IMG/VR virus record: IMGVR_UViG_3300030109_003902
Location: 1 to 25,857 of that record
DNA: 25,857 nucleotides
Strand: one strand, 5' to 3'
Source: a virus
Positions 450-24,891 of the stretch are shown here, in pieces; the stretch's first letter is position 1; the number at the start of each line of letters is the position of its first letter. The position numbers were made by a program, and so were the translations under genes. Below the pieces are notes generated by a model. That model worked only from the letters and a program-made list of their open reading frames with translations. It searched no databases and was not told the DNA's origin.

Positions 450-456
450 CATTTTC

Positions 457-3326: not shown

Positions 3327-3928
3327 GTGGATTAGAGACATCAACCATACTTATGCTTGTTGGCGCTGGAAGCACGGCGGCGGGCGCTGCCAGCACAATA
3401 CGGGCCGGGCATCTTCAATCCGCCATGTACGGCGCCCAAGCTGACCAAACCCGCGCACAAGGGCGGTCCCAGGTTCTTAAAGCCCGGCAAGAGGCTTTGC
3501 AGCACCGGGAAAAGGGCCTGCAAGTGCTTGACCAGATGCGGCGAACCGGAGCCACAATCAATGCCCGTGGCGCAGCAAATGCCATAAATCCGTTTGCCGG
3601 ATCCACTGGCAATCTAATGACCGTCAACCTCAAGGAAGGCTTTGAGGACTTCTCGACGACAAAAACCAACCGTCTGATCGCCGAGGATAATATGGTGATT
3701 ATGCAGAAGTCTGCAGAGCGCCAGGCCTCTATCTACGGACTAGCCGCAGGACAGGCAAAGTCTAGCGCGTATGCGTCGGCATTCATGCAAATCGCGCAAA
3801 GCGCAGCCATGATGGGCATGAGCGGTTTCGGTGGCGCAAATTCGTTAGCCGGACCCACGACAGGCGTACCAGGCGTACCAGTAAGCACCGGCCAGGGCGG
3901 CTATACCCCCACTTCGGCGGTAATTTAA
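3323..3928 (+). CDS. Internal virion protein B-like (T7 gp14 position equivalent)
   Basis: Encodes 201 residues; T7 gp14 has 196. It overlaps the nozzle gene by ATGA. The N-terminus carries a small-residue hydrophobic stretch (LMLVGAGSTAAGAASTI, about residues 10-26). A long Gln/Arg/Ala-rich helical region follows (about 35-130), and the C-terminus is rich in Gly, Met and Pro. This matches the architecture of gp14-type ejection proteins, which form a pore in the host outer membrane at DNA entry. Assignment is from size, composition and order between nozzle and a gp15-like gene rather than a catalytic motif. Confidence 0.65.
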   Translation: MSGLETSTILMLVGAGSTAAGAASTIRAGHLQSAMYGAQADQTRAQGRSQVLKARQEALQHREKGLQVLDQMRRTGATINARGAANAINPFAGSTGNLMTVNLKEGFEDFSTTKTNRLIAEDNMVIMQKSAERQASIYGLAAGQAKSSAYASAFMQIAQSAAMMGMSGFGGANSLAGPTTGVPGVPVSTGQGGYTPTSAVI

Positions 3929-9100: not shown

Positions 9101-9639
9101 TAAGCGGTGATGAGCTTATTGAGGCAGCAAATCGAGAACAAGCGCAACTATATACCGCTGCCCGCGCTCAAATGGGTTCGGAGTTTTCAGAAATTGCCGA
9201 CAGCGTACTAGGCTCAATGCCCGCTACCACAAGGCGCGTTTCAAATTCGGATGCGGTAAGCTCTGGTGTGCGCGTATCTGCTAAAAGCTCACGCGCAGAC
9301 ATTTCGGCCCAGGATTCCCGTGTATTAGACCAGGAAAACGCCTTGCCGTCATTGCGTAGTACGGCGGGAAATCTGCCCTCAAGTGAAAAAAATCTCATAG
9401 ATGAAACCTCTACTACTAATGAGAAAATTGCAAGAGAAATAGTCGAGTCAGGCGAACAATTCCTTGACGAAGGCGGCGGCGCAATGGACATGGTTCGCGC
9501 TCAAAATACTTTGCTCGAGGCTATGGTTCCAACTGGCCGAGTGGTTGATGGCGAGGCCGAACGTGTAACGGCCCGCAGCTTGTTTGAAGAAATTGAGAGC
9601 GACAAATCAATGCTAAATAGACTTAAGGATTGCGTCTGA
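6112..9639 (+). CDS. Large multidomain ejection/polyvalent protein with ParB-like and RelA/SpoT-like domains
   Basis: Encodes 1175 residues in the slot of the T7 gp16-type large internal protein. Residues 1-330 are helical with a short Ala/Gly-rich stretch near 225-245. Residues about 380-540 look like a ParB/DdrB-type nuclease fold: an IDLDKVEVDAKLFQFK entry, then FIADGHQRLGLAKS near residue 445 (the DGHxR motif), then a helical segment. Residues about 860-975 resemble the RelA/SpoT synthetase fold: GPLKTRDRVEAKI, DASRATIAVSTPDEA, then GEVKIIERN and a late GGHGLYKIER. These domains are known from phage polyvalent proteins that enter the host with DNA (Iyer, Burroughs and Aravind). Activity is inferred; a complete set of (p)ppGpp synthetase residues is not obvious. 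The last 150 residues are low-complexity and charged. It overlaps the next gene by one base (TGATG). Confidence 0.65.
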   Translation: MTILAPAEGDLVRTDFRPITGPETGFLKNYRVARERTALAGGPGMVLEILTRQINPFVKAYEERTGKKVRRGVNKEPKFERGEDGVFYVSNENYEYQALQDTVIELGKEDPNMLTWEEITENIPKMMREAEAQYFDTVGRQTTLGLIGEISGDVVEDINQLKYAPAELAFWLIGKRAGPGFKPLVKAAMMDSAAAAMAVGSRQPAIKYFREKHGLEYTTETALKNVGGAALAAFGLRVGVQGTARGVRRVGGAATDAGMRRFAPSAAFGRELNKAINGADMAAVDEVLRRASSRDLFNMQKSLEDSGVQFTPEIKGAAQLLERDADIVESNPFRDDQDIAAVAEHEQRMDAAIDAHLNNTNQVDLPPSSLPVKETGVHHFDNLNGTLQRIDLDKVEVDAKLFQFKEGGDEFGVTDRLAGVEKWDPIKAGTVTIYEFMNGRQFIADGHQRLGLAKSIRSKDPAQDVNLYGFVLREADGISPDQARAIAAMTNIAQGTGSYLDAAKVLRVNPSAISELPQQSQLVRVAGDLVELSDEAFGLVVNDVVKPTYAAIVGRLEKDAAKQMAIMRLIAKTEPANITQAEAIVRQARDIEFTKTTQDSLFGEEVMLESLFAERAKVLDEALKILQRDQNTFANLVRNEKTIAEGGNKLETESNKQRAETNGQAKQIIQTLSSRTGAISSALSAAAKRFKETGKAAPAARDFAEFVRGGIERGDFSRVSAEPPIRTFEPPAQNDQLAAGPAAEQIDAFATPIGPKADAALDRLENEFVESITAQLSADTNREVAAEIAQKNAQKIVEMGPGAKKKRLVLAQDLSEAELENLASILHSRQAYASIDDIMARNEAFNVELNAAVQKAAGEHKVDYFAGPLKTRDRVEAKINDKYVGELNRISDASRATIAVSTPDEADAFIKSLAKKYHVVDEGYQAAGTTSYFDKKLMVIDKDGTVGEVKIIERNLYDASTMQGGHGLYKIERGDLDTAAIIAELPDPEMRARLERLSGDELIEAANREQAQLYTAARAQMGSEFSEIADSVLGSMPATTRRVSNSDAVSSGVRVSAKSSRADISAQDSRVLDQENALPSLRSTAGNLPSSEKNLIDETSTTNEKIAREIVESGEQFLDEGGGAMDMVRAQNTLLEAMVPTGRVVDGEAERVTARSLFEEIESDKSMLNRLKDCV

Positions 9640-12149
9640 TGAGCCTGCGAGAGTGCATAATTAACGGTGTAAAAGAAGGCGCAATTACTGAAGCGCGAGG
9701 CAAAGAGGCAGAAGATCTATTTGATGATTTCCTCGCCCGCAGCGCCGGCGATGAAGCTGCTGCAGCCACAAAGACTTTTGATCAATTGAAGCACCAGGCC
9801 GCTCGACGACGCCATCTAAACATGCTGCGCGTCAAGACGTTCAATAGAGCCCGCACAGAGATGGGCAATTTTGTGCCGACATTCCGAGCATTAATGCTTA
9901 AAGGAAAAAAGCTAACTTTGGCGGATGTTCCGCGTCCAGGCAAATATATGCAAAGCCTCGTAGAAGGTGGCGAAGGCACTGCAAAAATAACTAAAAATTT
10001 ATACGGAGTTTACCACGCAACTCGTAGCAATGCCCTGGCAATGTTTGATGAGGGCTTGTACCAAAACCGGCAAAAGATTTTTACGCGAAAAGGTAAGGCC
10101 GGCGCACATCACCTTCTTATGGAGGTGTTTGGCGAAGACAGCGGCAATGCGGCGGCTAAAGTTGTTGCAGACCAATGGAGGCAGACCTCTGAATATTTGC
10201 GCCTACGCGCCAACCAGGCAGGCATGGCTATACCTACGCGAATAGATTGGCACCTACCACAGAGCCATGACGCTGTTTTAGTATCGAAGGTTGGGGCCAA
10301 AGGCTGGAAAGACGCAATCCGCGAGGATCTCGATTTAGATAAAATGATCAACGAGCAAACTGGCAATAAGTTTACTCCAGAGGAACTAGAGTTTGCACTT
10401 AATGAAGTTTATCGAACCATCACCGAAAATGGCCTTAACAAAATGAAAGAGGGCATGACCGGCGCAGGCAAGGCTCTGGCAAATCGCCGCCAGGATCACA
10501 GGTTTTTGGTTTTTGAAACTCCAGAGGGCTGGATGCGCTACCAGGAGCGATTTGGCGACCCTGATGTGTTCGGCACAATGATGAGCCATATCGAAACCAT
10601 GAGCCGCGACATTGCGATGCTCGAGGTGCTAGGGCCAAACCCAAACACAACAATCTCAGCGCTTAAAATTGAGGCGGAAAAAATGGCGCGGCAGCACAAT
10701 GTGAAAAATGCGAACACACGCGCCACAGACATGCTCGGCAATGATCTCGCAAGGTTTGAGTCGATGCTTGATATTTTCACAGGCGAAGCCATGACCGTTG
10801 CCAATGTTACGCTTGCCAATACAGCATCAGGATTACGCAATTTAGGAACAGCCTCACTGTTAGGGTCCACCGCTCCTATAGCTTTAGCAACTGATCTAGG
10901 CACAATGCGAATGGCAGCACAGATGATTGATATGCCTGTTGCCAAAATTATGTCTGGGCTGTTTAAACAATTAAAAGATGTGAAAAAGAAAGAACGCGCA
11001 AGGTTTGGTGTGCGCCTTGGTATAGCTGCCGAGAACTGGATAAGCCGCAGCCACGCGCAATCTCGATATTTTGGCGAAGTAGTCGGACCAAATCTCTCAA
11101 TATTTGCGAGTGATTCGGTGCTGCGGGCTACTGGTTTAAGTAGTTGGACCCAAGGAGCCCGCCAAGTATTTGGCATAGAATTTTTAGGGCATTTAGGGGA
11201 TCTAAAAACTAAAAAATATAATGCTCTTCCGGCGCACACTCGAGACACTTTAAAAAAGTATGAAATTACTGAAGACCGCTGGAACATTATCCGCAAAACC
11301 GAAATGGAAGTTTATAAAGGCGTTGATTTTGTGCGGCCTTTAAATATTGAAGCTAGAGATGATCTAGCACCGGGTTTAGGCAGGGAAATTAGCGTTGCAC
11401 TGCAAACATTAATTCACAACGAAACGAACCGGGGCATACCGCAAGCCACTATTAGGTCGCAAAGCACGCTGAAGGGTAATGCAAAACGCGGAACTTTTTC
11501 GGGTGAAATGATTAACAGTGCAGCACAATTTAAAAGTTTTCCCGTGAGTATCATGCAGGGAAATTTACTCCGCTACATGAGCGTAGAGGGTTGGGCAAAC
11601 AAAGCGAGATGGACAGCAGACTTTTTAATAACGGCCACAATTGCAGGCGCTCTGGGTTATCAAGCCAGGCAAATTGCCTCTAATCGGGATCCCGAAGACA
11701 TGACCACCAAAGAATTTTGGGCTAGGGCTATGCTAACCGGCGGCGGTCTTAGCATTGTGGGTGATTTTATGTTTGGAAATGTCAACCGTTATGGAGGTGG
11801 GCTAGCAACCACTTTTCTAGGGCCGTCAGTTGGCAGCCTTGATATGTTCCGAAATTTAACAGTTGGCAACGCGCTGCAAGCTGCGTCTGATGAGTCAACT
11901 AACTTTAATCGAGAGCTAATAGATTTTGTGGTTCGTAATTTACCGGGCCAAAATATGTGGTTCTCGAGAGCAGCCTTTGATCGCCTGGTAGTAGATCAAC
12001 TCAAAATTGCTGCAGATCCGCGCTCCTACAGAGAATTTAGGCGCAAGGAGCGGAGGCTATATAAAAACACAGGGCAGCGATTGTGGTGGCGTTCCGGTAA
12101 TATGTCACCTGATCGCTTCCCAGATTTCGGCGCAGCGCTCGGACAGTGA
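9639..12149 (+). CDS. Second large internal virion / ejection protein
   Basis: Encodes 836 residues. The ATG at 9639 overlaps the previous stop and has an AAGGA site about 10 bases upstream, so it is preferred over the non-ATG start at 9630. The protein is largely helical. Conserved-looking stretches are RIDWHLPQSHD (about residue 200) and the FLVFETPEGWMRYQERFGDP region (about 290). A more hydrophobic area lies near residue 390-420 (LANTASGLRNLGTASLLGST) and another near 665-685 (ADFLITATIAGALGYQA), possible membrane-inserting segments. I see no lysozyme or transglycosylase active site, unlike the N-terminus of T7 gp16. Probably it works with the 1175-residue protein in DNA ejection. Assignment rests on order and size; the precise family is not recognised. 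Confidence 0.55.
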   Translation: MSLRECIINGVKEGAITEARGKEAEDLFDDFLARSAGDEAAAATKTFDQLKHQAARRRHLNMLRVKTFNRARTEMGNFVPTFRALMLKGKKLTLADVPRPGKYMQSLVEGGEGTAKITKNLYGVYHATRSNALAMFDEGLYQNRQKIFTRKGKAGAHHLLMEVFGEDSGNAAAKVVADQWRQTSEYLRLRANQAGMAIPTRIDWHLPQSHDAVLVSKVGAKGWKDAIREDLDLDKMINEQTGNKFTPEELEFALNEVYRTITENGLNKMKEGMTGAGKALANRRQDHRFLVFETPEGWMRYQERFGDPDVFGTMMSHIETMSRDIAMLEVLGPNPNTTISALKIEAEKMARQHNVKNANTRATDMLGNDLARFESMLDIFTGEAMTVANVTLANTASGLRNLGTASLLGSTAPIALATDLGTMRMAAQMIDMPVAKIMSGLFKQLKDVKKKERARFGVRLGIAAENWISRSHAQSRYFGEVVGPNLSIFASDSVLRATGLSSWTQGARQVFGIEFLGHLGDLKTKKYNALPAHTRDTLKKYEITEDRWNIIRKTEMEVYKGVDFVRPLNIEARDDLAPGLGREISVALQTLIHNETNRGIPQATIRSQSTLKGNAKRGTFSGEMINSAAQFKSFPVSIMQGNLLRYMSVEGWANKARWTADFLITATIAGALGYQARQIASNRDPEDMTTKEFWARAMLTGGGLSIVGDFMFGNVNRYGGGLATTFLGPSVGSLDMFRNLTVGNALQAASDESTNFNRELIDFVVRNLPGQNMWFSRAAFDRLVVDQLKIAADPRSYREFRRKERRLYKNTGQRLWWRSGNMSPDRFPDFGAALGQ

Positions 12150-12212
12150 AATGATATTACATGGCCTTTTTTTTCATTTTGAATTATAAATACCAGACCG
12201 GAGTATTGATAA

Positions 12213-14339
12213 ATGGCAGACTATAGTATAACAGCGGTGGATCGCCGCGTTGTGTATGATGGCAGCGCGGGTACCGGGCCGTATGCCTTCAGCTTTCCAA
12301 TTTTAACTACCACCGATATTGCGGTTTTTAAGGACAGCACAAGGCTAACCGAGGGCTCTGGCTCAAGCCAGTACCAGGTTACAATAAGCTCAAGCAACGG
12401 TACGGGTTCCGTTACGCTCGGAAGCGCGGCGTCTGCTAGCAACACCATTACAATCACCGGCGCAAGGACGATTGAGCGCACAACGGACTTTGTGACGGCT
12501 GGCGACCTACTCGCATCCAGCCTCAACGTAGAGCTAGATAGTCAAACGATTTTCGCGCAACAGGTTAGCGAGGATGCGGCCAGGGCAATCAGGGCCCCAG
12601 TGACTGATCCAACATCGATTAACATGGAATTGCCGGCAAAGGCAGATCGTGCAGATAACCTCTTATCATTTAACTCATCAGGCGATCCGACCGTTACATC
12701 TGTCAGCGGCCTGGCGACGGTGGCTGCAAGTCTGCAACGCACAGTGGATGTATTCTCAGGAAACGGATCCACCACAAGTTTCACATTATCTGTTGCGCCT
12801 GGTCGCGAAGAAAATTGCCAGGTATTTTTTGATGGCGTTCATCAGGCGCACTCAACCTTTACCGTGAGCAATACAACCCTAGCTTTCAGCACAGCACCGC
12901 CGTCAGGCACTAACAATATTGAAGTCGTCCACGGTGCGGCTCTGGCAGAGGCCGGGCCACAAGGTGCGACGGGCAGTCAGGGCCCAGCCGGCCCGCAGGG
13001 TCCACGGGGCCAAGGCGGTGTTGAGTATAATTTTGAGAGTACGACGACAGACACCGATCAAGGAGCCGGCAAGGTATTCCTTAATAATAGTACAGTGGCT
13101 AGCGCGTCGGTGCTGTACCTAGATGACCTCGATGCTAACGGTGTCAATTTAAATACATTTATCGATACGTTCGATGATAGCAGCACCACATCGTATCGCG
13201 GCTCTATACACCTGGTTGAGATTGCTGATCCCAGCAACTACGCCATCTTTGCCGTGAATGGCAGCGTTATTTCAGCTTCGACATATAGTAAAATCCCGGT
13301 CGCGCACCAGGCCAGCGGTGGATCCTTTACCGATGGAAATGCAATGTCGGTGCTATTTGTCAGAACCGGCGACACGGGAAGCGGATTGGCTAGCGTAGTG
13401 GCGGACACGACACCTCAACTCGGTGGCGACCTCGACATGAATGGAAAGAATATAGACTTTCCGACCACGGCTAATGTCAGCGACGTTCTGAATGAAAGCA
13501 ACATGGCCAGCAATAGCTCAACCAAACTGGCCACGCAGAGCAGCATTAAGGCATACGCTGATTTAAAGGCGACGAAAGGCGCAAACTCCGACATCACCAG
13601 CCTTTCCGGGTTGACCACTGCATTGTCGGTAGCGCAAGGCGGGACCGGGGCGACGAGTTTGACGGACGGCGGGGTATTATTAGGCTCCGGCACAGGGGCC
13701 ATCTCGGCCATGTCGGCCCTTGGGGATGGGCATATCATTGTCGGAGACGGATCTGGCGACCCCGTAGCTCTAAGTGCTTTTTCAAGTAGCACGGGCAACC
13801 TTCTTGGGACCAAGGGCGGCGTAATCGGGCAGCAAACGATTTGGGTGCCAGCGGGAGCTATGGAGCCTGCCGTGTCAACGGCACCCGCCGTCAGCAACGC
13901 GGTGGAGATAGGCACAAGCCTTTTTGCCGCACGGACGATGGATTTCGCCGACGGCAGCGATTTGTATTGCTACTTTGGTATTCAAATGCCTAAGTCGTGG
14001 GATGCAGGAAATTTAGTCTTGCAGTTCGTGTGGAGCGCTACCGGCACCAACGCGAACACGGTGGCCTGGGGTGCAGCCGCAATATCACTGGCAGACGACG
14101 AAGCGCTCACAACCGCTTTCCCTGCTCCCACCGTAGCAACAGCCGATACAAACTCCACAACCGCCGATGATCTGATGATTTCAGCGGAGGTGTCTTTAAC
14201 CGTTGGCAGCTCACCAGCGGCTGAAAACTATGTGATGTTTGAAATTATGCGCGATGTGTCTGCTGACACTTTGGCAGAGGCCGCTCGTCTCCACGGCATC
14301 AGGATTCACTACACAGTAAACACGGGGATTGATACCTAA
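12213..14339 (+). CDS. Tail fibre protein with T7 gp17-like N-terminus and collagen-like repeats
   Basis: Encodes 708 residues. The ATG follows a GGAG site by ten bases. Residues 1-150 match the T7 gp17 N-terminal attachment domain: ITAVDRRVVYDGSAGTGPYAFSFPI, shown here only in part, then RTIERTTDF and LNVELDSQTIFAQQ. This domain docks the fibre to the tail. Residues about 175-240 form a beta domain (VFSGNGSTTSFTL, FDGVHQ). Residues 248-269 contain about seven Gly-X-Y triplets of collagen type. A fibre-typical AQGGTGATS motif occurs near 475, and a C-terminal beta domain from about 545 probably carries receptor contacts or trimerises the shaft. The 63 bases before the gene hold a T-rich tract but no clear terminator hairpin. 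Confidence 0.85.
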   Translation: MADYSITAVDRRVVYDGSAGTGPYAFSFPILTTTDIAVFKDSTRLTEGSGSSQYQVTISSSNGTGSVTLGSAASASNTITITGARTIERTTDFVTAGDLLASSLNVELDSQTIFAQQVSEDAARAIRAPVTDPTSINMELPAKADRADNLLSFNSSGDPTVTSVSGLATVAASLQRTVDVFSGNGSTTSFTLSVAPGREENCQVFFDGVHQAHSTFTVSNTTLAFSTAPPSGTNNIEVVHGAALAEAGPQGATGSQGPAGPQGPRGQGGVEYNFESTTTDTDQGAGKVFLNNSTVASASVLYLDDLDANGVNLNTFIDTFDDSSTTSYRGSIHLVEIADPSNYAIFAVNGSVISASTYSKIPVAHQASGGSFTDGNAMSVLFVRTGDTGSGLASVVADTTPQLGGDLDMNGKNIDFPTTANVSDVLNESNMASNSSTKLATQSSIKAYADLKATKGANSDITSLSGLTTALSVAQGGTGATSLTDGGVLLGSGTGAISAMSALGDGHIIVGDGSGDPVALSAFSSSTGNLLGTKGGVIGQQTIWVPAGAMEPAVSTAPAVSNAVEIGTSLFAARTMDFADGSDLYCYFGIQMPKSWDAGNLVLQFVWSATGTNANTVAWGAAAISLADDEALTTAFPAPTVATADTNSTTADDLMISAEVSLTVGSSPAAENYVMFEIMRDVSADTLAEAARLHGIRIHYTVNTGIDT

Positions 14340-14340
14340 C

Positions 14341-14733
14341 ATGACAAAATACGCAAGGATTACCTCCTCGACTGGAGATATTATAGAAGAAAAAGACGAG
14401 GCTGAGTTTCGCGGTGGGAAGCCGCCGCCTGCTAACACTGCCAAGGATTGGGAATGGCTGCCGGTTACGGTTGAAAAGCCTAGCTACAACATTAAAACCG
14501 AGGTGCTTGAAGGCCCGAAAGATGTTGTGACGGCTGAAAAAATCACACGCAAATGGACGGTTGCGAAGTTAAGCGATAAGGAAATCGATGACCGCAAGGA
14601 TTTACAAATACCTCGCACTGACAGCGTTCAATATAAAATCATGTTTGATCAAGAAAACCGAGTGCGGAAACTTGAGGGTTTGAGTGCCACTACACACGAC
14701 GAGTTTCGCGTTTTGTTAAGGAGTAAGGTGTAG
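14341..14733 (+). CDS. Small tail-fibre-associated protein, possible fibre assembly factor
   Basis: Encodes 130 residues from the ATG two bases after the fibre stop; an in-frame ATT upstream is not needed. The sequence is charged, with a Pro-rich GGKPPPANT segment, a WEWLPV motif and a region TAEKITRKWTVAKLSDKEID that resembles the Trp-containing linker of phage tail fibre assembly or tail-accessory proteins. No enzyme motif is seen. The position between two fibre genes suggests a chaperone or connector, but that is inference. The stop TAG shares its G with the GTG of the next gene. Confidence 0.45.
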   Translation: MTKYARITSSTGDIIEEKDEAEFRGGKPPPANTAKDWEWLPVTVEKPSYNIKTEVLEGPKDVVTAEKITRKWTVAKLSDKEIDDRKDLQIPRTDSVQYKIMFDQENRVRKLEGLSATTHDEFRVLLRSKV

Positions 14734-15335
14734 TGTTTCAGGCCACAAACCTTATTGGATTTGGTGCGGGTCCCAGTAGTGCGGGCGGCTACACATTTAC
14801 TCAGTCGGCGGAAAGCGAGTGGTCGGGAACCTTATCTCACTACGATTTCAATGGGAGCCATATCGAAAGCAGCCAAACACAAAATTTCGGCATTCGTTCC
14901 GACGACACTTTTTCAGGAGACATGGCCTTTGATCTCACCTGGAAGGTCGACATTCCCGACAGCCAAGCTGCATGTGGTGTCTTTAATAATGCTGAACCTA
15001 CAGCATCGTGGTCCGGCTCCGCCCTAAATGGCAACATGGGCTCGATGGGAACGAACAATGCTTTTTGGTGGCAGGCGACAAGCAGCACTAATTTGCTTGT
15101 GTATAGCGGCGGCACGCTAGACGGAACGGTGGATATGCCTGACGTGAACGATGTTATGAGGATTCGTCGGGCAGGCGAGGTCTGGACTCTTGAGTATGAC
15201 GACGGCGGTGATGGAAATTTCGGGGTGATTCAAACATTTTCAGGAACAAATAGTAGCGCAACCTTTAGGCTGCATGTCTGCCTGTATCAAGCGAACGACG
15301 ACATCAATTCCGTGCAATGGGGACCAGCGGCGTAG
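14733..15335 (+). CDS. Putative tail / receptor-binding protein
   Basis: Encodes 200 residues, starting with GTG overlapping the previous stop by one base and preceded by AAGGAG. It is rich in Ser, Gly, Asn and aromatic residues with alternating polar and hydrophobic beta-like pattern. Features such as YTFTQSAESEWSGTLSHYDF, VMRIRRAGEVWTLEYDDGGDG and a C-terminal FRLHVCLYQAND suggest a concanavalin/lectin-like jelly-roll sheet, as seen in many tail spike or fibre tips. No family can be named with certainty. Its location in a run of fibre genes supports a role at the host surface. Confidence 0.45.
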   Translation: MFQATNLIGFGAGPSSAGGYTFTQSAESEWSGTLSHYDFNGSHIESSQTQNFGIRSDDTFSGDMAFDLTWKVDIPDSQAACGVFNNAEPTASWSGSALNGNMGSMGTNNAFWWQATSSTNLLVYSGGTLDGTVDMPDVNDVMRIRRAGEVWTLEYDDGGDGNFGVIQTFSGTNSSATFRLHVCLYQANDDINSVQWGPAA

Positions 15336-15344
15336 GAGCAAAAA

Positions 15345-15977
15345 ATGGCAACGACTAAAGTAAGTTCTAGTGTTATTGGCGACAACGAAGTTAAAACAGT
15401 CAATATTTTGAACGCGAATGTGACGGCGGATAAAATAGCGTCAAACGCGGTGACGACTGTCAAGATAAATAACGCTGCGGTCACGGCTGATAAGCTTGGG
15501 TCGGCTTCCGTGACGGCTGTGAAGCTTGGTGCCGGTATAACCACCCGTGCATACGCGGAAGACACGACCAGAAAATTAGCTACCACACTTATGGTTGCTG
15601 ACGATACCATTCCTCAACGAACCGAGGGTGATGAAATTTTAACCTGCGCGATAACGCGGTTAAGCGCGAGTAGCCGGCTCCGCATTCGGGCACATTGCCC
15701 GTTTAGCGTGAACGGCTCAATGGCCGTTATACTTGCTCTGTTTCAAGACACTACCGCCAATGCGCTGGCTGCGGTCAGCACGTCGACAGGCGACGACGAT
15801 GAAATGAACCACATGACTCTCGAGCATGAAATGGCGTCAGGCTCGACAGGTAGCACAACATTTAAATTGCGGATTGGCCCAGTGAGCAGTGCCAACGTTA
15901 GAACAAACGGTATCAGCACAGGCAGGCTATTAGGTGGCGTTATGAAAACGACACTCACCGTCGAAGAAATTCTTTAA
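15345..15977 (+). CDS. Tail fibre-like protein with short N-terminal repeats
   Basis: Encodes 210 residues; GGAG lies seven bases before the ATG. Residues about 8-62 consist of imperfect repeats of roughly 10 residues of the form (N/S)AVTxxK(I/L), for example NANVTADKI, NAVTTVKI, NAAVTADKL and SASVTAVKL. Such repeats form trimeric shafts in phage fibres and in many virion proteins. The C-terminal 120 residues are a beta-type domain with RLRIRAHCPFSV and SGSTGSTTFKLRIGPVSS, probably the head of the short fibre. A role as secondary fibre or tail-tip attachment protein is inferred. Confidence 0.6.
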   Translation: MATTKVSSSVIGDNEVKTVNILNANVTADKIASNAVTTVKINNAAVTADKLGSASVTAVKLGAGITTRAYAEDTTRKLATTLMVADDTIPQRTEGDEILTCAITRLSASSRLRIRAHCPFSVNGSMAVILALFQDTTANALAAVSTSTGDDDEMNHMTLEHEMASGSTGSTTFKLRIGPVSSANVRTNGISTGRLLGGVMKTTLTVEEIL

Positions 15978-15993
15978 TGCAATACGGTTACTA

Positions 15994-16290
15994 ATGACAC
16001 GCGCACTCGCAATACTGCTGATATTGATTTGCGCCACGGCGCAGGCAGAACCGCTAGCGCCTAAAGCATACTATGATTTGCGCGGCCCCTGCTACGAACC
16101 CCGTGATGCGCTGAACAACCTTAAAGAGAATGATTTCGAGCTTGTGGTGACTTCAACATTTGTAAACACAATAGGATTTGAGGCCGACGTTTACATTTTC
16201 CGGGCCGGTGCCGCGTTTGTTGTTGCGGTCACACATGCGGATTTGTTGTGTGTACTGGTGACAGCTGACGGTATGAATTTCGGGGTGTAG
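15994..16290 (+). CDS. Small exported protein of unknown function
   Basis: Encodes 98 residues. The N-terminus has an Arg, a hydrophobic core (ALAILLILICATAQA) and a likely signal peptidase site after residue 18 (AQA before EP), so it probably enters the periplasm. The mature part of about 80 residues contains two Cys residues (GPCYEP and the late LLCVLV) that might form a disulphide. No family is recognised. It opens the block that carries the endolysin and holin, so a role in envelope modification or lysis control is possible. The ribosome site is weak. Confidence 0.55.
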   Translation: MTRALAILLILICATAQAEPLAPKAYYDLRGPCYEPRDALNNLKENDFELVVTSTFVNTIGFEADVYIFRAGAAFVVAVTHADLLCVLVTADGMNFGV

Positions 16291-16291
16291 G

Positions 16292-16654
16292 GTGGACGGT
16301 TCAATCGATATCCGTCTAGTGATGACGGTCCTTGGAATGGTCTGCAGTGTTGCCGGCGCCGCCGCAGTCGCCAGGGTACAGATCAGAGAGATATCAGCGA
16401 AGCTACAGGACATTGAAATACGGCTGCGGCAGATGGATAGCCGTGCCGATAAGCTATGGACAATTACAGAAACACAAGAAACCAGGCTGGACGTTCTGGC
16501 AAAAATGGCCGCGCCGGAGCTTTTGAGGCGTGACCACATGGCTATGGCCACGCTGCAATCCGATGTGCGCCAATTGAGGAAGGATGTTGACCACCAGCTA
16601 CATATCCATAATTCCAAACATATCCCCGTTTCAGATACGAGAGTAGGTGATTAA
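16292..16654 (+). CDS. Membrane-anchored coiled-coil protein, possibly spanin-like
   Basis: Encodes 120 residues from a GTG just after the preceding stop. One transmembrane segment lies near residues 8-28 (VMTVLGMVCSVAGAAAVARV). A charged heptad-patterned helix follows (about 30-105), and the C-terminus is His-rich (HQLHIHNSKH). A single N-terminal anchor plus a long coiled coil fits inner-membrane spanins, and other small phage membrane proteins look the same, so the role is inferred from the lysis-block context. Its stop TAA overlaps the ATG of the endolysin gene by one base. Confidence 0.5.
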   Translation: MDGSIDIRLVMTVLGMVCSVAGAAAVARVQIREISAKLQDIEIRLRQMDSRADKLWTITETQETRLDVLAKMAAPELLRRDHMAMATLQSDVRQLRKDVDHQLHIHNSKHIPVSDTRVGD

Positions 16655-17052
16655 TGTCTAAACACTTCAAACTCGAGGAATTCGCGTGTAGCAGCAGCGG
16701 CCTTTCGCTAATGAACGAGCAATTTCTACAGGCGCTCGAGGAGATCCGCGAGAGGCTTGGCGAACCAATGGTAATCACTTCCGGCTATCGCTCAGACCAG
16801 CACCCGATTACTCAGGCAAAAATTGCCAAGGGCGCAAAGCATGGTGGCGCTCATCACCTGGGCCTTGCCGCTGATGTCGGATGTGCCGGCCCAAAGGCAA
16901 TGAAGATTCTTGCGCTGGCAATTCAGAACCCGGCGATCACTGGCGTAGGAGTTAAGCAAAACGGCCCGTGGAATAGCCGCTTTATCCATATAGACGCCGT
17001 GCCTCGCGACAACAATTTCGGGCTTACCCGCCCAGCACTATGGAGCTATTAG
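16654..17052 (+). CDS. Endolysin: M15 family peptidoglycan peptidase
   Basis: Encodes 132 residues, the normal length of a single-domain M15A peptidase. An AGGTGA site precedes the ATG. The zinc-binding and active-site signatures are present: SGYRS at residues 43-47, the HxxGxAxD motif with His67, Gly70, Ala72 and Asp74, and HxD at His112-Asp114. Family members cut D-Ala or L-Ala/D-Glu bonds of the peptidoglycan stem peptide. There is no signal peptide, so release should need the holin encoded directly downstream. This is the phage lysis enzyme by motif and place. Confidence 0.9.
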   Translation: MSKHFKLEEFACSSSGLSLMNEQFLQALEEIRERLGEPMVITSGYRSDQHPITQAKIAKGAKHGGAHHLGLAADVGCAGPKAMKILALAIQNPAITGVGVKQNGPWNSRFIHIDAVPRDNNFGLTRPALWSY

Positions 17053-17053
17053 G

Positions 17054-17473
17054 ATGATAGGAGCAATACTACCAATCGTAGCGCCTCTGATCGGCGATGT
17101 GGTGAAACGCATTTTGCCGGAGGATAAAGATAAGGCCGCCGATATCGAGCGCGAACTTAACATGGCGCTGATGCAAAACAATGCGGCGATTGAGCAGGCG
17201 GCTGCGTCGGTCATTAATGCGGAAGCAAAATCCGAGCACAAAATTACCGCGACCTGGCGCCCAATTTTAATGCTCACAATAACTGCCATCGTGGGCTGGA
17301 ATTTTTTAGTCGCGCCCTTAGCGGAGCTTGCTGTTCGATTAACGACTGGCAGCGACTTACCTTTGAGCATCCCATTACCAGAACAACTTTGGAACCTATT
17401 AATGATTGGCGTCGGCGGCTATGTGGTCGGCAGAAGTGGAGAAAAAATTGCAAAGAATTTCGGCGATAAGTAA
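17054..17473 (+). CDS. Holin, GTA-type three-TM family
   Basis: Encodes 139 residues; GGAG lies eight bases before the ATG. An N-terminal hydrophobic helix (AILPIVAPLIGDVV) is followed by a charged helical region with DKDKAADIERELN. Then come the TWRPILMLTITAIVGWNFLV segment and a last helix LWNLLMIGVGGYVVGRSGE. The WRP and VGGYVVGRSGEK features are those of the GTA_holin_3TM/Phage_holin_3 family common in alphaproteobacterial phages and gene transfer agents. It would permeabilise the inner membrane to release the M15 endolysin encoded one base upstream. Confidence 0.85.
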   Translation: MIGAILPIVAPLIGDVVKRILPEDKDKAADIERELNMALMQNNAAIEQAAASVINAEAKSEHKITATWRPILMLTITAIVGWNFLVAPLAELAVRLTTGSDLPLSIPLPEQLWNLLMIGVGGYVVGRSGEKIAKNFGDK

Positions 17474-17714
17474 ATGTTTGACTGTAATCATCCTGGCCTT
17501 ATCCGCTGGCGGATGTCTGCCGTTCACTGTCTTGAGCGCAGTAAGTGGTTTGTATCACACCCACCAAATCAATGAGTTGTCCGAGCAAATCGAGCGCAGT
17601 GCAGAAGGGCCGGGTGGGGGAACTCATAACCATGGCGTCTATCGAGCGTATGGGGGGACACGTCGCAGCATCAATTGGCGGGACACCGGGCTTCGACCTT
17701 ATATGTTACGTTAA
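17448..17714 (+). CDS. Candidate small lipoprotein overlapping the holin gene (o-spanin-like)
   Basis: A different frame from the holin, overlapping its last 26 bases, can encode up to 88 residues from a TTG at 17448. GGAG sits six bases upstream. The N-terminus is Lys/Arg-containing, followed by a hydrophobic core and LALSAGGC, a lipoprotein signal with an imperfect lipobox (Ala-Gly-Gly before Cys23). The later part (HQINELSEQIERS) is a short amphipathic helix. The last 39 codons overlap the next gene, so the C-terminal end may be fortuitous. Size, lipobox and overlap with lysis genes fit outer-membrane spanins (Rz1-like). Longer starts at 17406 or 17421 are possible. Function is inferred. 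Confidence 0.4.
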   Translation: MQRISAISKCLTVIILALSAGGCLPFTVLSAVSGLYHTHQINELSEQIERSAEGPGGGTHNHGVYRAYGGTRRSINWRDTGLRPYMLR

Positions 17715-18009
17715 TCAGAACTGGCACCGCGTCGAAGTAAAAAGCCGCAGCCATGCCGATAAGCGAAACAGCTATCAGTTCATGACGAGCAAAGGCCTTG
17801 AGGGCCGACGCATGATAAGCCAAAAAGACTGCGATATAATTGCGCTTTGCGCCCTCGATCTTCGACTGTGCCAATATTTTAATGTATCAGAAATCCGGGT
17901 GCTGCGCCGGCGCGTGGCAAAATCACAGTTTACTCTGGCCGCCGAAGCCAGGACTTTCCAGTCTGCGTTTGCGCTCTTAACTCCTCAATCTCATCCGCCG
18001 CAATGTTAA
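17599..18009 (+). CDS. PD-(D/E)XK nuclease-like protein
   Basis: Encodes about 136 residues from a GTG at 17599. This start gives the family-typical opening KGRVGELITMASIERMGG, with Glu8 in the first helix. GTPGFDLI supplies Asp33 and HRVEVKSR supplies Glu46 and Lys48, together the PD-(D/E)XK metal site. Such proteins occur in phages as resolvase-like or restriction-like nucleases. Starts upstream at 17545 or 17572 are possible but add Cys/Ser/Lys-rich residues that do not look conserved. No strong ribosome site is seen. The 3' end overlaps the convergent winged-helix gene by 80 bases, so the two transcripts would be antisense. Confidence 0.65.
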   Translation: MQKGRVGELITMASIERMGGHVAASIGGTPGFDLICYVNQNWHRVEVKSRSHADKRNSYQFMTSKGLEGRRMISQKDCDIIALCALDLRLCQYFNVSEIRVLRRRVAKSQFTLAAEARTFQSAFALLTPQSHPPQC

Positions 18010-19335: not shown

Positions 19336-19519
19336 CTGTAGTCACTCCATAGTTAAACATGATTAAAACTGATGAGGTTTTAGTGACTACAAACTAGATA
19401 AGTGGTTGTTTTTACTGGGTTGTTACAGTCCTACCGGGGTCGCCACTACCCTAATATTACTTAATAAAAACAACGCATTAGTATTCTGTAGTCACTTTGT
19501 TGTTTTAGCTGTAGTCACT
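19336..19519. other. attP: Probable attP region with integrase arm-type repeats
   Basis: The segment at the 3' end of the integrase gene holds four copies of an 11-bp motif CTGTAGTCACT or its core. Direct copies lie at 19336-19346, 19486-19496 and 19509-19519. An inverted nine-base copy (AGTGACTAC) lies at 19382-19390. The last copies overlap the end of the integrase coding region and include its TGA. They flank the tRNA-like core described separately. Repeated short sites on both sides of a core are the known layout of tyrosine-integrase attP sites. That these are bound by this integrase is inference. Confidence 0.6.
19428..19445 (+). other. Candidate att core resembling a tRNA 3' end
   Basis: The 18 bases GTCCTACCGGGGTCGCCA read as the end of a tRNA: two T-loop bases, five T-stem bases (CCTAC), seven acceptor bases (CGGGGTC), discriminator G and CCA. 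The bases just upstream (GGGTTGTTACA) do not pair to make a T-stem, so this is not a whole tRNA. Phages that integrate into tRNA genes carry exactly such a 3' fragment in attP. I cannot name the tRNA. The reading depends on the host carrying a tRNA with acceptor 5' strand GACCCCG. Confidence 0.45.
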
Positions 19520-20604
19520 TTTAGTTTTGCAAGCCCTCCTATTGCAAGTTTTTTGTTGTCTGCCATCTCTGTGTAAAGTTGCGCGGTGGCCGTATCATTC
19601 CAGCCAAATATAGCTAGCAACTCTTTTTCCGTCGCGCCGTTTTCTGCGAGCATTGCCGCGCCTGCCTTACGCACTCCGTGAGGAGATAGCCCTGCCGGCA
19701 TATTTGCCGCTCTGCAAATCTTTCTAAACCAATTCCCAAAACTATCTGGGCTTTCAAACGGCTTGCCACTTCGGGTAGCTAGCCAGGTTAATCCGACAAT
19801 GGTGCTAGCTTCTTGGTATGCCTCAATGGCTTCAGCCAACTCAGGTCGCATTGGTATAATTATGGTTTTAGGATGCGCCTGGCCGGCGGCGTCAACCTTA
19901 TCGCGGTTCTTCTTTTGAACGAAAGTGATAAGCCCATCTTCTACATTTCTCGGACCTAAATAAATAACATCGCTGCGTCTTGCGCCTGTACAAATCAATA
20001 ACATCATTGCCAAATACTCTCGGGTGCCAAGCGGATAAAATTCTAAAAACTGTTGCCGCTCAGTTTCCGACCAGGTTCTATGCCCAGTGCTGCCATCTGG
20101 TTTTGTTTTGATTGGCATTTTAGAAACGCCCGCGCATGGGTTATGTCTTATAATTTTTTGCTGAACCGCCCAATTGAATAAAGCATGTAAATCCTTCAGC
20201 CGGTTATTGGCTGCTGATGGTAGGTTGCGTTTTTTATCTCTGATTCTTTCGACGCCAATTGCATCAAGCTGGTCAATGTTCAAATGTCCTACGCTATCGA
20301 GGTACTGCTCAAAGCGTTTTTGCTTGTTTGTTTTTGTGACCGGGGCAAATGCTGACCACCTATCTGATTGCTTATATTTTGCATACAACCAGTTTAGGCT
20401 TCGCTCCAAAACAATACCCGTCTCCGCGCTTAGTTCCGCTTCTTGTTTCATTTGAGCGGCAGCATACTGCATCATAAACTCGGGGCTGTTCACTGGCCGC
20501 GCGGTCAACTCGATACCCTTCAGCTTGCGGTTTCTGCGATAATAAATTTTGAGATTGCCGCGCCGGTCTTTGTACTGATTTAAATATTTTAGCTCTACCT
20601 TCAT
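19492..20604 (-). CDS. int: Tyrosine recombinase (phage integrase)
   Basis: Encodes 370 residues with the full tyrosine recombinase layout. The N-terminal part (about 1-65) contains an arm-binding-like beta region (KYLNQYKDRRGNLKIYYRR). The core-binding domain spans about 65-160. In the catalytic domain, Arg209 lies in TGARRSD, a Lys at 231/232 in FVQKKN, His309 and Arg312 in SPHGVRKA, Trp335 in FGWND, and the nucleophile Tyr344 in LYTEM. All catalytic residues are present, so the enzyme should be active. The start ATG overlaps the stop of the excisionase-like gene (ATGA). It is expected to recombine attP, just beyond its 3' end, with a host site. Confidence 0.92.
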   Translation of the reverse strand: MKVELKYLNQYKDRRGNLKIYYRRNRKLKGIELTARPVNSPEFMMQYAAAQMKQEAELSAETGIVLERSLNWLYAKYKQSDRWSAFAPVTKTNKQKRFEQYLDSVGHLNIDQLDAIGVERIRDKKRNLPSAANNRLKDLHALFNWAVQQKIIRHNPCAGVSKMPIKTKPDGSTGHRTWSETERQQFLEFYPLGTREYLAMMLLICTGARRSDVIYLGPRNVEDGLITFVQKKNRDKVDAAGQAHPKTIIIPMRPELAEAIEAYQEASTIVGLTWLATRSGKPFESPDSFGNWFRKICRAANMPAGLSPHGVRKAGAAMLAENGATEKELLAIFGWNDTATAQLYTEMADNKKLAIGGLAKLKVTTAKTTK

Positions 20605-20825
20605 ATGGTGTGCCAGGGATTACCCGCTGGCTCTCCTCGTTTGGGCAAGCGATCAAAGCAATCATCGATCTCGGACCGATCCCAAACCACGCGGTTGCGG
20701 CTGGCTTGCCGAGGCTGAGGCATTTGACGCAGACTAACCAGGCGGTCAAATGTGCTTGGGCTGACGCCTAAATATAAAGCGGCGTCTGTTCTGGATAGGC
20801 CTCGCGGTGTGATGTTTGCTTTCAT
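20601..20825 (-). CDS. Excisionase-like helix-turn-helix protein
   Basis: Encodes 74 residues from the ATG at 20825. A longer frame to 20999 would run through the palindrome array and is rejected. The sequence is a MerR/AlpA-type HTH_17 domain: GLSRTDAALYLGVSPSTFDRL, quoted in part, a turn, then RVVWDRSEIDDCFDRLP, the common RxxWxRxEID ending. Small proteins of this kind next to an integrase act as recombination directionality factors or as regulators of int. Its stop overlaps the integrase start, so the two are cotranslated. The ribosome site before the ATG is weak. The palindrome array begins 36 bases upstream. Confidence 0.75.
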   Translation of the reverse strand: MKANITPRGLSRTDAALYLGVSPSTFDRLVSLRQMPQPRQASRNRVVWDRSEIDDCFDRLPKRGEPAGNPWHTI

Positions 20826-20860
20826 GCTTGCTAAGTTAATATAAAAATTGCATTTGTGAA

Positions 20861-20919
20861 GCGTCACGTTGGCACTTTGGTTGCGCCACCGTGGCACCTT
20901 GGTTGCGCCACCGTGGCAC
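20861..20919. repeat. Palindrome array, cluster A (three 15-bp sites, 22-bp period)
   Basis: Three 15-base imperfect palindromes start at 20861, 20883 and 20905: GCGTCACGTTGGCAC, then two identical copies of GCGCCACCGTGGCAC. They are separated by seven-base spacers TTTGGTT and CTTGGTT. The full unit repeats every 22 bases, about two DNA turns, so bound dimers would lie on the same face. The cluster is directly upstream of the excisionase-like gene. Confidence 0.9.
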
Positions 20920-20992
20920 AATAGTTGAAAATGTGTGTTGTTAGTTCTCAATCGGTTAGCCGTTTCGTCAGTGCATTCATAGTATGTTTTTT
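20920..20992. promoter_or_regulatory. Spacer between the two palindrome clusters, candidate promoter region
   Basis: This 73-base segment separates clusters A and B and has no palindrome copy. The start-to-start distance between clusters is 132 bases, exactly six 22-base units, so the register is kept. On the minus strand it contains TTGAGA near its middle followed at a long 19-base distance by AACTAT, a weak sigma70-like pair aimed at xis and int. Calling a promoter here is tentative. Confidence 0.3.
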
Positions 20993-21051
20993 GTGCCACC
21001 GTGGCACTTTGGTTGCGCCACCGTGACGCTTTGGTTGTGCCACGGTGGCGC
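20993..21051. repeat. Palindrome array, cluster B (three 15-bp sites, 22-bp period)
   Basis: Three more copies start at 20993, 21015 and 21037: GTGCCACCGTGGCAC (a perfect palindrome around its centre base), GCGCCACCGTGACGC and GTGCCACGGTGGCGC. The spacers are both TTTGGTT. The cluster ends five bases from the stop of the winged-helix gene. Together the six copies form an operator-like or iteron-like array between that gene and xis/int. Confidence 0.9.
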
Positions 21052-21056
21052 TAGCT

Positions 21057-21716
21057 TTATTTTTTTTTGTGATCATCGTCGACCAGCTGGAGCATCGTAT
21101 GTAACCGGCTTGGTTTGGCGCGGCGAAATTTTTCGTCGTCTTTTTGGAGAAGCGCCGTGTCGAGTAAGCTATAAAAGGAGTGCAGCATCAAATAGAGCTG
21201 GTAGGTTTGTTCGTTTAATAGCAAACGATGCAGATTTTCGAGCTGATGATGCAGGGCTGCCTGTGTGTATTCATAAACGCCTTTTTTCGTCTTGGTAAAA
21301 ACACCTTCTCCCACGGCGTCAACAAAATACCGATTCAATGTTCTTTGGCTGATTTCAAATTTTTCTGCTTGTTGCAAAACCGAGCCAGCGGTGATTTCTT
21401 CATCTTCGCAATACATCATCAATATAACGCGGCTGATCGTAAGAAATTTTGTATTCCGGCCCGCGAAACTCATAAATTTATTAACTGGTGCATGTCTCCG
21501 GCGTTGTGCGACCGACAAATTATAGCTTGTGGTTGCATGGTGCATCTTCCATCTCAGCTTTTTAACAATAGCAAAGATTTCCGCCAGATGATCGTTGTCA
21601 ATATCCGCATATTTGTTTGGCATTTCCACGCTGTTAAGCAAAGCTTCGCGGGCTTCCACCCCGGCCTTCTTTTTTAACAGCTCACTCATCACTCCATCAG
21701 TAATCTTGTCACTCAT
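21057..21716 (-). CDS. Winged-helix DNA-binding protein next to the palindrome array
   Basis: Encodes 219 residues. The ATG at 21716 overlaps the serine recombinase stop by ATGA and is preferred to an upstream frame starting at 21782. Residues about 92-155 look like a MarR-type winged helix: LTISRVILMMYCEDEE, a recognition-helix region EISQRTLNRYFVDAV, then a wing with GVFTKTKKGVYEY. Residues 1-90 are basic and helical (QRRRHAPVNKFM), and the C-terminal 65 residues are helical, probably a dimer surface. It ends in a Lys tract. A dimeric winged-helix protein five bases from six palindromic sites is a natural candidate to bind them, as repressor, partition or replication factor. That link is inference; the family is not firmly recognised. 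Confidence 0.6.
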   Translation of the reverse strand: MSDKITDGVMSELLKKKAGVEAREALLNSVEMPNKYADIDNDHLAEIFAIVKKLRWKMHHATTSYNLSVAQRRRHAPVNKFMSFAGRNTKFLTISRVILMMYCEDEEITAGSVLQQAEKFEISQRTLNRYFVDAVGEGVFTKTKKGVYEYTQAALHHQLENLHRLLLNEQTYQLYLMLHSFYSLLDTALLQKDDEKFRRAKPSRLHTMLQLVDDDHKKK

Positions 21717-22426
21717 TTGATTTTCCTTCCTATCAATTTTTCGTACCTGGTAATCACGTTTTTGACGTTCGACGGGTGCCACTCAGTGTTTTTCCTCGCC
21801 GTCTTCTGGCCTCGGGCCATCAGGCCTTTGGCAATTTGCTGTAGGGTTTCGCACCCATATTTTTGCAATTCCTCGATAAGCGGACCAACCTCAAGCGCGA
21901 ATTTATCAGCCTTGGCTATGCGTTCTTTGCTTGCCAGCTTGCTAATCTTTTTCGGATCCCGGGCGCCCAGCTTGACGCCTCGCGCTTTCGCCGCAGCCAA
22001 CGCGTCTTTTGTCCGTGCCCCGATAATGTTGGCCTCATACTCGGCAACATTCGCCATCAGCTGTAGAATAAATTTATTCTGGGCCGGGTTGGACATCTGC
22101 GGAATGTCACAGAAAATAATGTCGACATTGCTGTCTAATATTCGCGTCAGGAAACCCAGGTTACGGGTGATCCGGTCAACCTTCGCCGCGACCAGGGTGG
22201 CCCCCTCGGCCTGGCACACCTCGATTGCCTTTTGAAGTTCGGGCCGGTCGCGCATAACTTTTCGGCCAGACTCTATTTCCGTGAACTCACCGATTAGCTC
22301 CCAATCGCCGCCGTTTAAATGCTGCCTCACGGTTTCCTGTTGCGCCTCGAGGCCAAGGCCTGATTGCCCCTGGCGCTGCGTACTCACGCGGTAGTAGGCA
22401 ACGAATTTCCCGCTATGTGGTGTCAT
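21713..22426 (-). CDS. Serine recombinase (resolvase/invertase family)
   Basis: Encodes 237 residues. The N-terminal catalytic domain is complete: YYRVST with Arg13 and the nucleophile Ser15, then AAKVDRITRN with Asp84, Arg85 and Arg88. A conserved long helix follows (QLMANVAEYEANIIGARTKD, about 120-145). The C-terminal part carries ARGQKTARKNTEWHPSNVKNVI, shown partly, which matches the Gly-x-x-T...W-x-x-x-x-V DNA-binding tail of this family. The enzyme could resolve multimers, invert DNA, or act on the host genome. No pair of crossover sites is identified in the window. It is coupled to both neighbours by ATGA overlaps. Confidence 0.88.
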   Translation of the reverse strand: MTPHSGKFVAYYRVSTQRQGQSGLGLEAQQETVRQHLNGGDWELIGEFTEIESGRKVMRDRPELQKAIEVCQAEGATLVAAKVDRITRNLGFLTRILDSNVDIIFCDIPQMSNPAQNKFILQLMANVAEYEANIIGARTKDALAAAKARGVKLGARDPKKISKLASKERIAKADKFALEVGPLIEELQKYGCETLQQIAKGLMARGQKTARKNTEWHPSNVKNVITRYEKLIGRKIK

Positions 22427-22630: not shown

Positions 22631-23260
22631 TTAGGCTGCCGCTGCAAAGAGCGGCAAACCGATTAACTCTAATGGTGCGCGTGTCTTTTTGCTAGGTAGC
22701 GGCACAATCTTTGCCACTGGCTTGTATGCGCCCGACGCAACGTAGGCATTCCGCAGCACTCTATATATAGCCTGCCACCTCTTACCGTGAACGCGGTCGC
22801 CGGTGCCATACTCTATGCCGGCAATCGATACCGCGCCGGCGGTGAAATCAATGGCGTGAGCAATTTCGTGGCAAAGCAATGCCGCCATCGGTGCCCGCGT
22901 GTCGCTAGGATCGCCTAGCAGTCTGCCAATCTCGGGGTCATCGTTGATGCTTGCATATTCTTCCCAGGTTGCAAGCCCCGCGTCGGCGTTCTTGAGCCGC
23001 TGCAAAGCCCGAGTTCGCCTTGGGCAAGGCCGGCTTTGCTCCCAGGACTTAACAGCTTTAGCGGTGACATCATCCGGCGTTGTGTCCCAGCCGATACCCA
23101 ACGGGATACTGATGAACGGATAGCCACCGCGCTTGCCGCCGCAAGGGATACCACGGCCATTCCGCAACTTCACTTTAAGCTTGCCGGGCCAGTCGCTATC
23201 GACCAGCCCCTTCGCTACGGCAATATTAGAAATGCTTCGGATCATTTTGTTAATGTTCAT
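22631..23260 (-). CDS. SprT-like zinc metalloprotease-family protein
   Basis: Encodes 209 residues. CHEIAHAIDF supplies the HExxH zinc site (His131, Glu132, His135), and HGKRWQAIYR (His158) is the probable third ligand, as in SprT/Spartan-like zincins. The domain spans about residues 100-172. The N-terminal 60 residues are basic and Gly-rich, and the C-terminus is Pro/Lys-rich. Phage proteins of this type have no settled role. In this operon, next to DNA-binding and recombinase genes, cleavage of a DNA-bound protein or a repressor is possible but unproven. The start shares one base with the previous stop (TAATG). Confidence 0.75.
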   Translation of the reverse strand: MNINKMIRSISNIAVAKGLVDSDWPGKLKVKLRNGRGIPCGGKRGGYPFISIPLGIGWDTTPDDVTAKAVKSWEQSRPCPRRTRALQRLKNADAGLATWEEYASINDDPEIGRLLGDPSDTRAPMAALLCHEIAHAIDFTAGAVSIAGIEYGTGDRVHGKRWQAIYRVLRNAYVASGAYKPVAKIVPLPSKKTRAPLELIGLPLFAAAA

Positions 23261-24357: not shown

Positions 24358-24891
24358 ATGCTAGACGTATTGGATCAAGGATCAAGTAACGAGTATTTTG
24401 CCTGGAAGCCATCCGAGCAAACTTTTAAAATTGATGGGCAGGCCTGCGATGTGACCAAATTCGCAATCGACCCCCAAAGTTTACAAACTGGATGGGGCAA
24501 GCTGGCGAAAGGCGAGGCCCCTGATTTTTGCTGGTCGCAAGAAGCAGGCACATCAATCCCGCGCCCATCTGATGATCATAAAACTGCATTTATGTTAAAT
24601 GTGTTTGTGAGCCAAAAAGGTGGAGCACCGGAGAACGGCTGGCGCGAGTGGCGAGAGATCGGTGCAGGCGCAAAAGACGGGCTCAAAATGGTATGGCCTG
24701 AGGTTGAGAAAAAAGCCGAAGCTAACAAGCTAGTCGTCGTCGAGGTGACAGAGAAAAAGCCGGTCAAAATTGGCATGGGGTCTTCTGTCGTCCCAATAAT
24801 GAAAGTAGTTGGCCTTGTCGATAAACCGGCGGAAGAGCCGGCACCGGCACCGGCACCGGCACCGGCAACCACAGACGATGAAATATTCTAA
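24358..24891 (+). CDS. Probable single-stranded DNA-binding protein
   Basis: Encodes 177 residues starting three bases after the nuclease stop. The body is a beta-rich domain with FKIDGQACDVTKFAIDPQSL and QTGWGKLAKGEAPDF as notable segments. A Pro/Ala linker (about 159-170, encoded by a hexamer repeat) leads to the acidic end TTDDEIF. An acidic tail ending in Phe is the hallmark of SSB proteins, including T7 gp2.5, which use it to bind partners. Place between a nuclease and the primase/helicase fits replication. The OB fold itself is inferred. Confidence 0.6.
   Translation: MLDVLDQGSSNEYFAWKPSEQTFKIDGQACDVTKFAIDPQSLQTGWGKLAKGEAPDFCWSQEAGTSIPRPSDDHKTAFMLNVFVSQKGGAPENGWREWREIGAGAKDGLKMVWPEVEKKAEANKLVVVEVTEKKPVKIGMGSSVVPIMKVVGLVDKPAEEPAPAPAPAPATTDDEIF
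24838..24867 (+). repeat. Hexanucleotide repeat in the SSB linker
   Basis: Five exact tandem copies of CCGGCA encode the alternating Pro-Ala linker before the acidic tail. Such tracts can change length by slippage without breaking the frame, since each unit is six bases. Confidence 0.9.

Follow-up and report, generated by a model that had tools for sequence, protein, structure and literature searches.

Six palindromes on a 22-bp grid beside a winged-helix gene: a candidate replication origin in a phage

What is the role of six short palindromes set on a strict grid between the gene of a DNA-binding protein and the xis/int module of a phage? The window, that is, the whole stretch of DNA analysed here (25,857 nucleotides), contains such an array, for which an earlier sequence-only reading had offered two explanations, an operator controlling integration or an iteron/centromere of a plasmid-like prophage. 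We favour the iteron option, as the core and spacing of the array recur inside phage initiator genes. With moderate confidence, we regard the palindromes as iterons at which the phage starts replication and to which the 219-residue winged-helix protein encoded alongside binds.

Checking the sequence bore out the coordinates previously given for the six 15-bp palindromes (Table 1), as well as the 22-bp grid, on which units 0, 1, 2 and 6, 7, 8 are occupied and a three-unit gap separates the two triplets, and the placement between the winged-helix gene (stop 21057) and xis (ATG 20825). Over the whole window, the consensus GYGYCANNNTGRCRC (GYGYCA-NNN-TGRCRC; half-site GYGYCA) has six exact sites versus 0.04 expected, a number of sites (at least six) reached in none of 100 dinucleotide shuffles of the window, and nowhere in the window outside the array is there a fit of at least 11/12. 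This consensus describes the array better than the narrower one initially proposed, GYGCCACCGTGGCRC, which is exact in three copies (20883, 20905, and 20993) and inexact in the other three. Similarly, the YTTGGTT spacer follows four of the six copies and differs after the two copies that end a triplet. As for the claim that all units share one helical register, it holds on the base-pair grid only: the DNA helical repeat being 10.5 bp per turn, successive units rotate by ~34 degrees each, and the outermost units, at a distance of 176 bp, are offset by about a quarter turn.

Table 1. Location of the array and of neighbouring features in the window
Feature	Position	Strand	Remarks
Palindrome u0	20861..20875	.	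GCGTCACGTTGGCAC; 12/12 fit to GYGYCANNNTGRCRC
Palindrome u1	20883..20897	.	fits GYGYCANNNTGRCRC
Palindrome u2	20905..20919	.	fits GYGYCANNNTGRCRC
Palindrome u6	20993..21007	.	fits GYGYCANNNTGRCRC
Palindrome u7	21015..21029	.	fits GYGYCANNNTGRCRC
Palindrome u8	21037..21051	.	fits GYGYCANNNTGRCRC; 5 bp from winged-helix stop codon
Central spacer between triplets	20920..20992	.	73 bp, 34% GC; candidate melting region
AT-rich stretch	20826..20860	.	26% GC; beyond u0, before xis ATG
Winged-helix protein, 219 aa	21057..21716	-	proposed array binder, initiator-like; ATG overlaps recombinase gene end
xis-like protein, 74 aa	20601..20825	-	PHROG 66 excisionase, E 4e-7; PHROG 597 DNA binding protein, E 3e-10
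Tyrosine integrase, 370 aa	19492..20604	-	PF00589, E 1.9e-12
Serine recombinase	21713-22426
Probable attP	19337..19519	.	between int and exonuclease gene, 3' of int

Comparison with a related phage provides information on the constraints acting on these sites. Queries of viral_contigs with the winged-helix protein, with int, and with the exonuclease led to the same single locus, L005 (5,057 bp), the sole relative found in this collection, in which a single-protein query detects close relatives only. The winged-helix protein of L005 is 94% identical to the one studied here, and its array has the same 3+3 layout and the same spacings. The sequence-only reading had named homologous loci that keep the protein and lack the array as evidence against it; L005, the one relative available for this comparison, keeps both. 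The two phages show 12 base differences within the palindromes, all of them at positions 2, 4, 7, 8, 9, or 14. Over the 12 copies, positions 1, 3, 5, 6, 10, 11, 13, and 15 are invariant, and positions 2, 4, 12, and 14 keep their pyrimidine or purine class. Differences restricted to degenerate positions are as expected for DNA recognition, not for RNA hairpins, and the symmetry of the constraint supports, at the level of sequence, the dimer-type binding suggested earlier. In addition, positions 2 and 14 are unpaired (C-A) in five of the 12 copies, and positions 4 and 12 in two, so it is probably the symmetry of DNA contacts that is conserved, and not RNA pairing. RNA hairpins or terminators were thus rejected, as C-A pairs at 2/14 and 4/12 fit pyrimidine/purine recognition in DNA; six terminator-like matches are listed in 20500-21800 (1.7 expected), three of which are formed by the palindromes.

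Differences from L005 are unevenly distributed, with 13/59 in the left triplet versus 3/59 in the right triplet and 3/73 in the spacer, and the left triplet also stands above the winged-helix gene (80/660) and int (30/1113). In L005, the pair u8-u7 and the pair u2-u1 share the same 15-mers, which looks like exchange between repeats. Both the site constraint in two phages and these homogenised-looking copies argue for an origin.

The main evidence comes from the occurrence of the same core and spacing in other phages. We searched viral_contigs (2.9 million contigs) for the core GCCANNNTGGC (GCCA-N3-TGGC) at a 22-bp period and recovered 85 stretches (L006-L090). With a core scrambled but identical in composition (GACC-N3-GGTC, 22 bp) the number was 12, and with the original core at 28 bp it was 22; this excess argues for the origin reading. 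At least three near-copies (at least 7/8 core bases, in any register, within 250 bp) are present in 62 of the 85 loci, some of which will be chance (tail sheath and terminase ORFs are included), and 23 loci have a pair only. One ORF was tested per locus, the longest over the pair. PHROG 678 and PHROG 391 ("replication initiation O-like") each match in 32 of the 62 multi-copy loci and PHROG 428 and PHROG 270 ("replication initiation protein") in 31 each, the PHROG counts covering these 62 loci only, while HTH_36 is found in 29 of them versus one of the 23 pair-only loci. These matches also argue for an origin; against it counts that, in roughly half of the multi-copy loci, the ORF over the pair has no O-like match. 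Some contigs of the set are near-duplicates, and the distinct domain stretches number 35, including one (L046) that was mis-picked. With a model built from 18 of these ORFs, the pair is covered by an O-like ORF in 44 of the 85 loci, versus 0/22 for the 28-bp control and 2/12 for the scrambled core; this model is partly circular, unlike the Pfam and PHROG counts. It also scores the xis frame where this continues through the array (20604-21050; E 0.0058), so its score can be raised by translated repeats alone, a caveat that does not touch the domain-only model. In genome contigs, the GCCACNGTGGC pair occurs in nine stretches, none of which has an O-like ORF over it.

In O-like genes, the array typically lies mid-gene, after the winged-helix coding region, and in the window it begins 5 bp past the winged-helix gene, a correspondence which also argues for an origin. 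We read the arrays in O-like genes as probable lambda-type origins. That one core and one period recur across many phage initiator genes is the broader finding; as the same word and spacing are found inside the replication-starter genes of many phages, the array of the window is most likely a replication start. Among the papers listed by our literature searches, we saw none on this core and period, which does not show that the pattern is new to the literature.

Several side observations were made during these searches. In L048, the winged-helix ORF ends ~60 bp past the array, which is also overlapped by an ORF that runs on in another frame; the layout may be partly split there, and a frameshift within one gene would look identical. 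Two matches of the scrambled-core control (GACC-N3-GGTC; L215:3129-4238 and L218:3261-4139) lie in O-like ORFs, so the 22-bp grid may persist while the core changes. Finally, among the matches listed in a free-spacing triple scan (L097-L193), many contigs have GCCANNNTGGC copies at 15- or 30-bp spacing, which are possibly coding repeats.

The spacer and flanks of the array are AT-rich (34%, 26%, and 21% GC versus 50% for the window), which again argues for an origin; they are not the most AT-rich stretches of the window, in which 40-mers go down to 17.5% GC elsewhere. For 30 O-like arrays, mean lag-12 identity is 0.398 downstream versus 0.278 upstream, lag 12 having been picked after inspecting lags 5 to 24. 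Here, lag-12 identity is 0.31 in the spacer and 0.38 after u0, the latter value being borderline (the 95% point of the window is 0.365). This lack of a clear 12-bp repeat counts against an origin, as do the GC skew, which tracks gene direction and shows no sign of an origin, and the detection of one relative only.

The protein encoded next to the array is less easily classified. It matches no initiator family of PHROG, NCBIfam, or Pfam at E up to 0.1; PHROG and NCBIfam gave no row of any kind, and its sole Pfam row (E 0.088) is far below the family cut-off. The structure predicted for it is poor (mean pLDDT 58.5), and the rows obtained with this model are MarR/SarA-like (SarA, Z 7.2 over 103 residues, rmsd 5.1; a MarR chain, Z 6.3 over 93 residues, rmsd 4.0), the best Z of 7.2 being at a level that may mean only a common arrangement. 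Foldseek returned no match to PDB or BFVD at E <= 0.001. Among the structure matches listed (best 50 per search), no replication initiator was seen, which does not exclude one, and a replication terminator protein is present (Z 6.0 and 5.7). The recognition helix SQRTLNR (SRRTLNR in L005) fits the R-[ST]-x-x-R pattern of O-like domains, whose presence in these domains is by construction since a looser form of it was used to pick them. When the window is scanned with a model of the O-like DNA-binding domain, the winged-helix protein ranks first among 209 ORFs (E 0.014); this rank and the recognition helix may also speak for an origin. Aligned to the O-like profile with hhalign, the protein scores 28.1 (E 1.7e-4, single comparison), a value reached by none of 100 column shuffles (best shuffle 20.6). 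The helix-turn-helix protein xis scores 22.3 against the same profile (E 3.6e-4), so part of the score is generic. The lack of an initiator-family match, the weak and unspecific hhalign match, and the poor MarR/SarA-like fold model all count against the origin reading.

No relative of the winged-helix protein was found in 50,697 phage records or in 72,556 plasmid records, and none was confirmed in genome_contigs. A profile search of 754 genomes (385 + 369) gave four matches at E up to 0.01, two of them in ORFs resembling SpoT and the other two weak and with internal stop codons. As exact GCCANNNTGGC is absent from all four loci, these matches were taken as chance.

How does this arrangement compare with known systems? 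Lambda iterons are themselves inverted repeats. Lambda O/ori-lambda and the O/ori of Stx phages associate a phage-coded DNA-binding protein with a short repeat array and AT-rich DNA (PMC7466680). The locus studied here likewise has a DNA-binding protein gene beside a short repeat array and AT-rich DNA; its O-like origin features are six symmetric sites starting 5 bp after the gene of the putative initiator and an AT-rich region alongside. Unlike in lambda O/ori, the array lies outside the gene (past the stop codon at 21057, and not inside the initiator reading frame), is split 3+3 around a 73-bp spacer, and has another site sequence; unlike lambda O, the winged-helix protein has no family-level match to O. 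A family match and in-gene iterons were both looked for and neither was found, so we do not claim lambda-O-like membership, and the position outside the gene is a further point against an origin. The O-like/HTH_36 class with GCCA-N3-TGGC sites shares with this locus the core, the 22-bp period, and the place directly after the winged-helix coding region, the match in core and period being by construction, as the class was found by that pattern. Unlike here, most initiators of that class are longer and contain the array in frame, followed on average by 12-bp phased DNA. Another point of comparison is the PLE satellite, whose RepA_N initiator has a dimeric N-terminal domain and whose iterons are needed for replication (PMC7145576). 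By analogy, both would be mobile elements with a putative initiator and iterons; the PLE initiator belongs to the RepA_N family (structure 4RO3), unlike the winged-helix protein with its lack of family match.

In coding order on the minus strand, the neighbourhood comprises a SprT-like gene, a small ORF, the serine recombinase, the winged-helix gene, 5 bp, the array, xis, int, and a RecE-like exonuclease. The SprT-like metallopeptidase candidate (22631-23260; PF10263, E 0.0012, below the family cut-off) belongs to the same gene run. A 177-residue protein without family match (24358-24891) adjoins a RusA-like gene (PHROG 244) and ends in TTDDEIF, which we take to resemble the acidic tail of single-strand-binding proteins. 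Among eight proteins scanned in window 1-18000, there were matches to tail, internal virion, tail-fibre, and endolysin proteins; in all 18 window proteins scanned, neither a polymerase nor a helicase was detected (the record being 25.9 kb). The xis frame stays open across the entire array (20604-21050, minus strand), and a 132-codon GTG-start ORF (20601-20999; L005 1902-2300) covers part of the array in both phages. As the array part of this ORF often changes amino acids, the ATG at 20825 was taken as the xis start.

The attP candidate carries four TGTAGTCACT arm-type words (at 19337, 19382 (inverted), 19487, and 19510), inner inverted 10-mers (19405-19414/19465-19474), and, by eye only, a tRNA-3'-end-like stretch (19427-19445); this tRNA-like core had no match in the two genomes in which it was sought. 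The candidate is located 1.3 kb from the array, and the array as attP or attP arms was rejected in view of this separate region with its own arm words.

The main rival to a replication origin is an operator array, on which MarR-like winged-helix dimers would control the downstream xis and int genes, perhaps via looping between triplets; we consider it possible, if somewhat doubtful. The array is directly upstream of xis/int, which also counts against an origin, and the MarR/SarA-like rows of the predicted fold are consistent with such a role. MarR/SarA-type dimeric regulators have a winged helix between long helices, as in our low-confidence model, and, to our knowledge, an array of six copies on a fixed grid would be unusual for them. 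A promoter-like match on the minus strand (20867-20838) has its first hexamer inside u0, but the promoter count is at chance (one found versus a mean of 1.7 in shuffles). Six phages (L091-L096) have related, only 26-33% identical integrases, and three of them also have a xis homologue, but none has the array: the 1.0-1.7 kb upstream of int contain no family of at least three direct repeats (one two-copy pair is present in L092), and the loci show no site cluster, with isolated 11/12 or 12/12 sites in L091, L092, and L095. Int/xis modules of this kind are therefore not usually accompanied by the array. This absence, together with the probable attP on the other side of int, led us not to favour the integration operator of the sequence-only reading, against which also stand the recurrence of core and spacing in initiator genes and the lack of any site elsewhere in the window, for example at 23.5-24.0 kb where gene direction changes.

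Two other explanations appear much weaker. A role in partition or copy control for a plasmid-like prophage (centromere or incompatibility repeats) is improbable: centromeres can show iteron-like geometry, and xis has a match to TIGR03453 (plasmid partitioning RepA, N-terminal part; E 0.012) at 14.4 bits, far below the cut-off of 348, but no ParA-type family is found among the 18 window proteins scanned, and the tyrosine integrase and probable attP point to integration. A recombination site, consisting of attP arms for the tyrosine integrase or a res-type site for the serine recombinase (21713-22426), is very improbable. Both recombinase genes are nearby and the symmetric sites are arranged 3+3 around a spacer, but the attP candidate has its own arm words 3' of int, and the palindromes are odd-centred, unlike serine-recombinase crossover sites, which have a 2-bp even centre.

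If the array is instead a replication origin, as we favour, dimers of the winged-helix protein (21057-21716) would occupy all six 15-bp palindromes, the 73-bp spacer having three to either side, and would bend or wrap the DNA. Binding would help to melt the AT-rich spacer or the stretch 20826-20860, a helicase would be loaded onto the melted DNA, and replication would start here. The locus would work like lambda O/ori-lambda, except that the iterons, instead of lying within the gene, come after its end. The array itself, its sequence constraint, the recurrence of core and spacing inside initiator genes, and the neighbouring winged-helix gene are observed; binding by this protein, melting, and initiation of replication are inferred. 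A broader proposal, which we put forward as speculative and rather unlikely, is that of one iteron code shared by many phages, in which GCCA-N3-TGGC sites on a 22-bp grid and 12-bp phased melting repeats would be read by R-[ST]-x-x-R winged helices; the phage studied here would have an initiator reduced to a stand-alone winged-helix protein and an origin outside the gene, directly upstream of xis/int, and the array would be both origin and xis/int switch, as initiator bound there could time excision too.

If the replication-origin reading is true, this locus would provide a temperate phage with an origin and with an initiator, a protein that has no family match. It would also be a natural version of the lambda-O design split in two, so that binding module and origin can be tested separately. 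More generally, the core, the period, and the 12-bp repeats would constitute a simple DNA pattern for locating replication origins in viral contigs.
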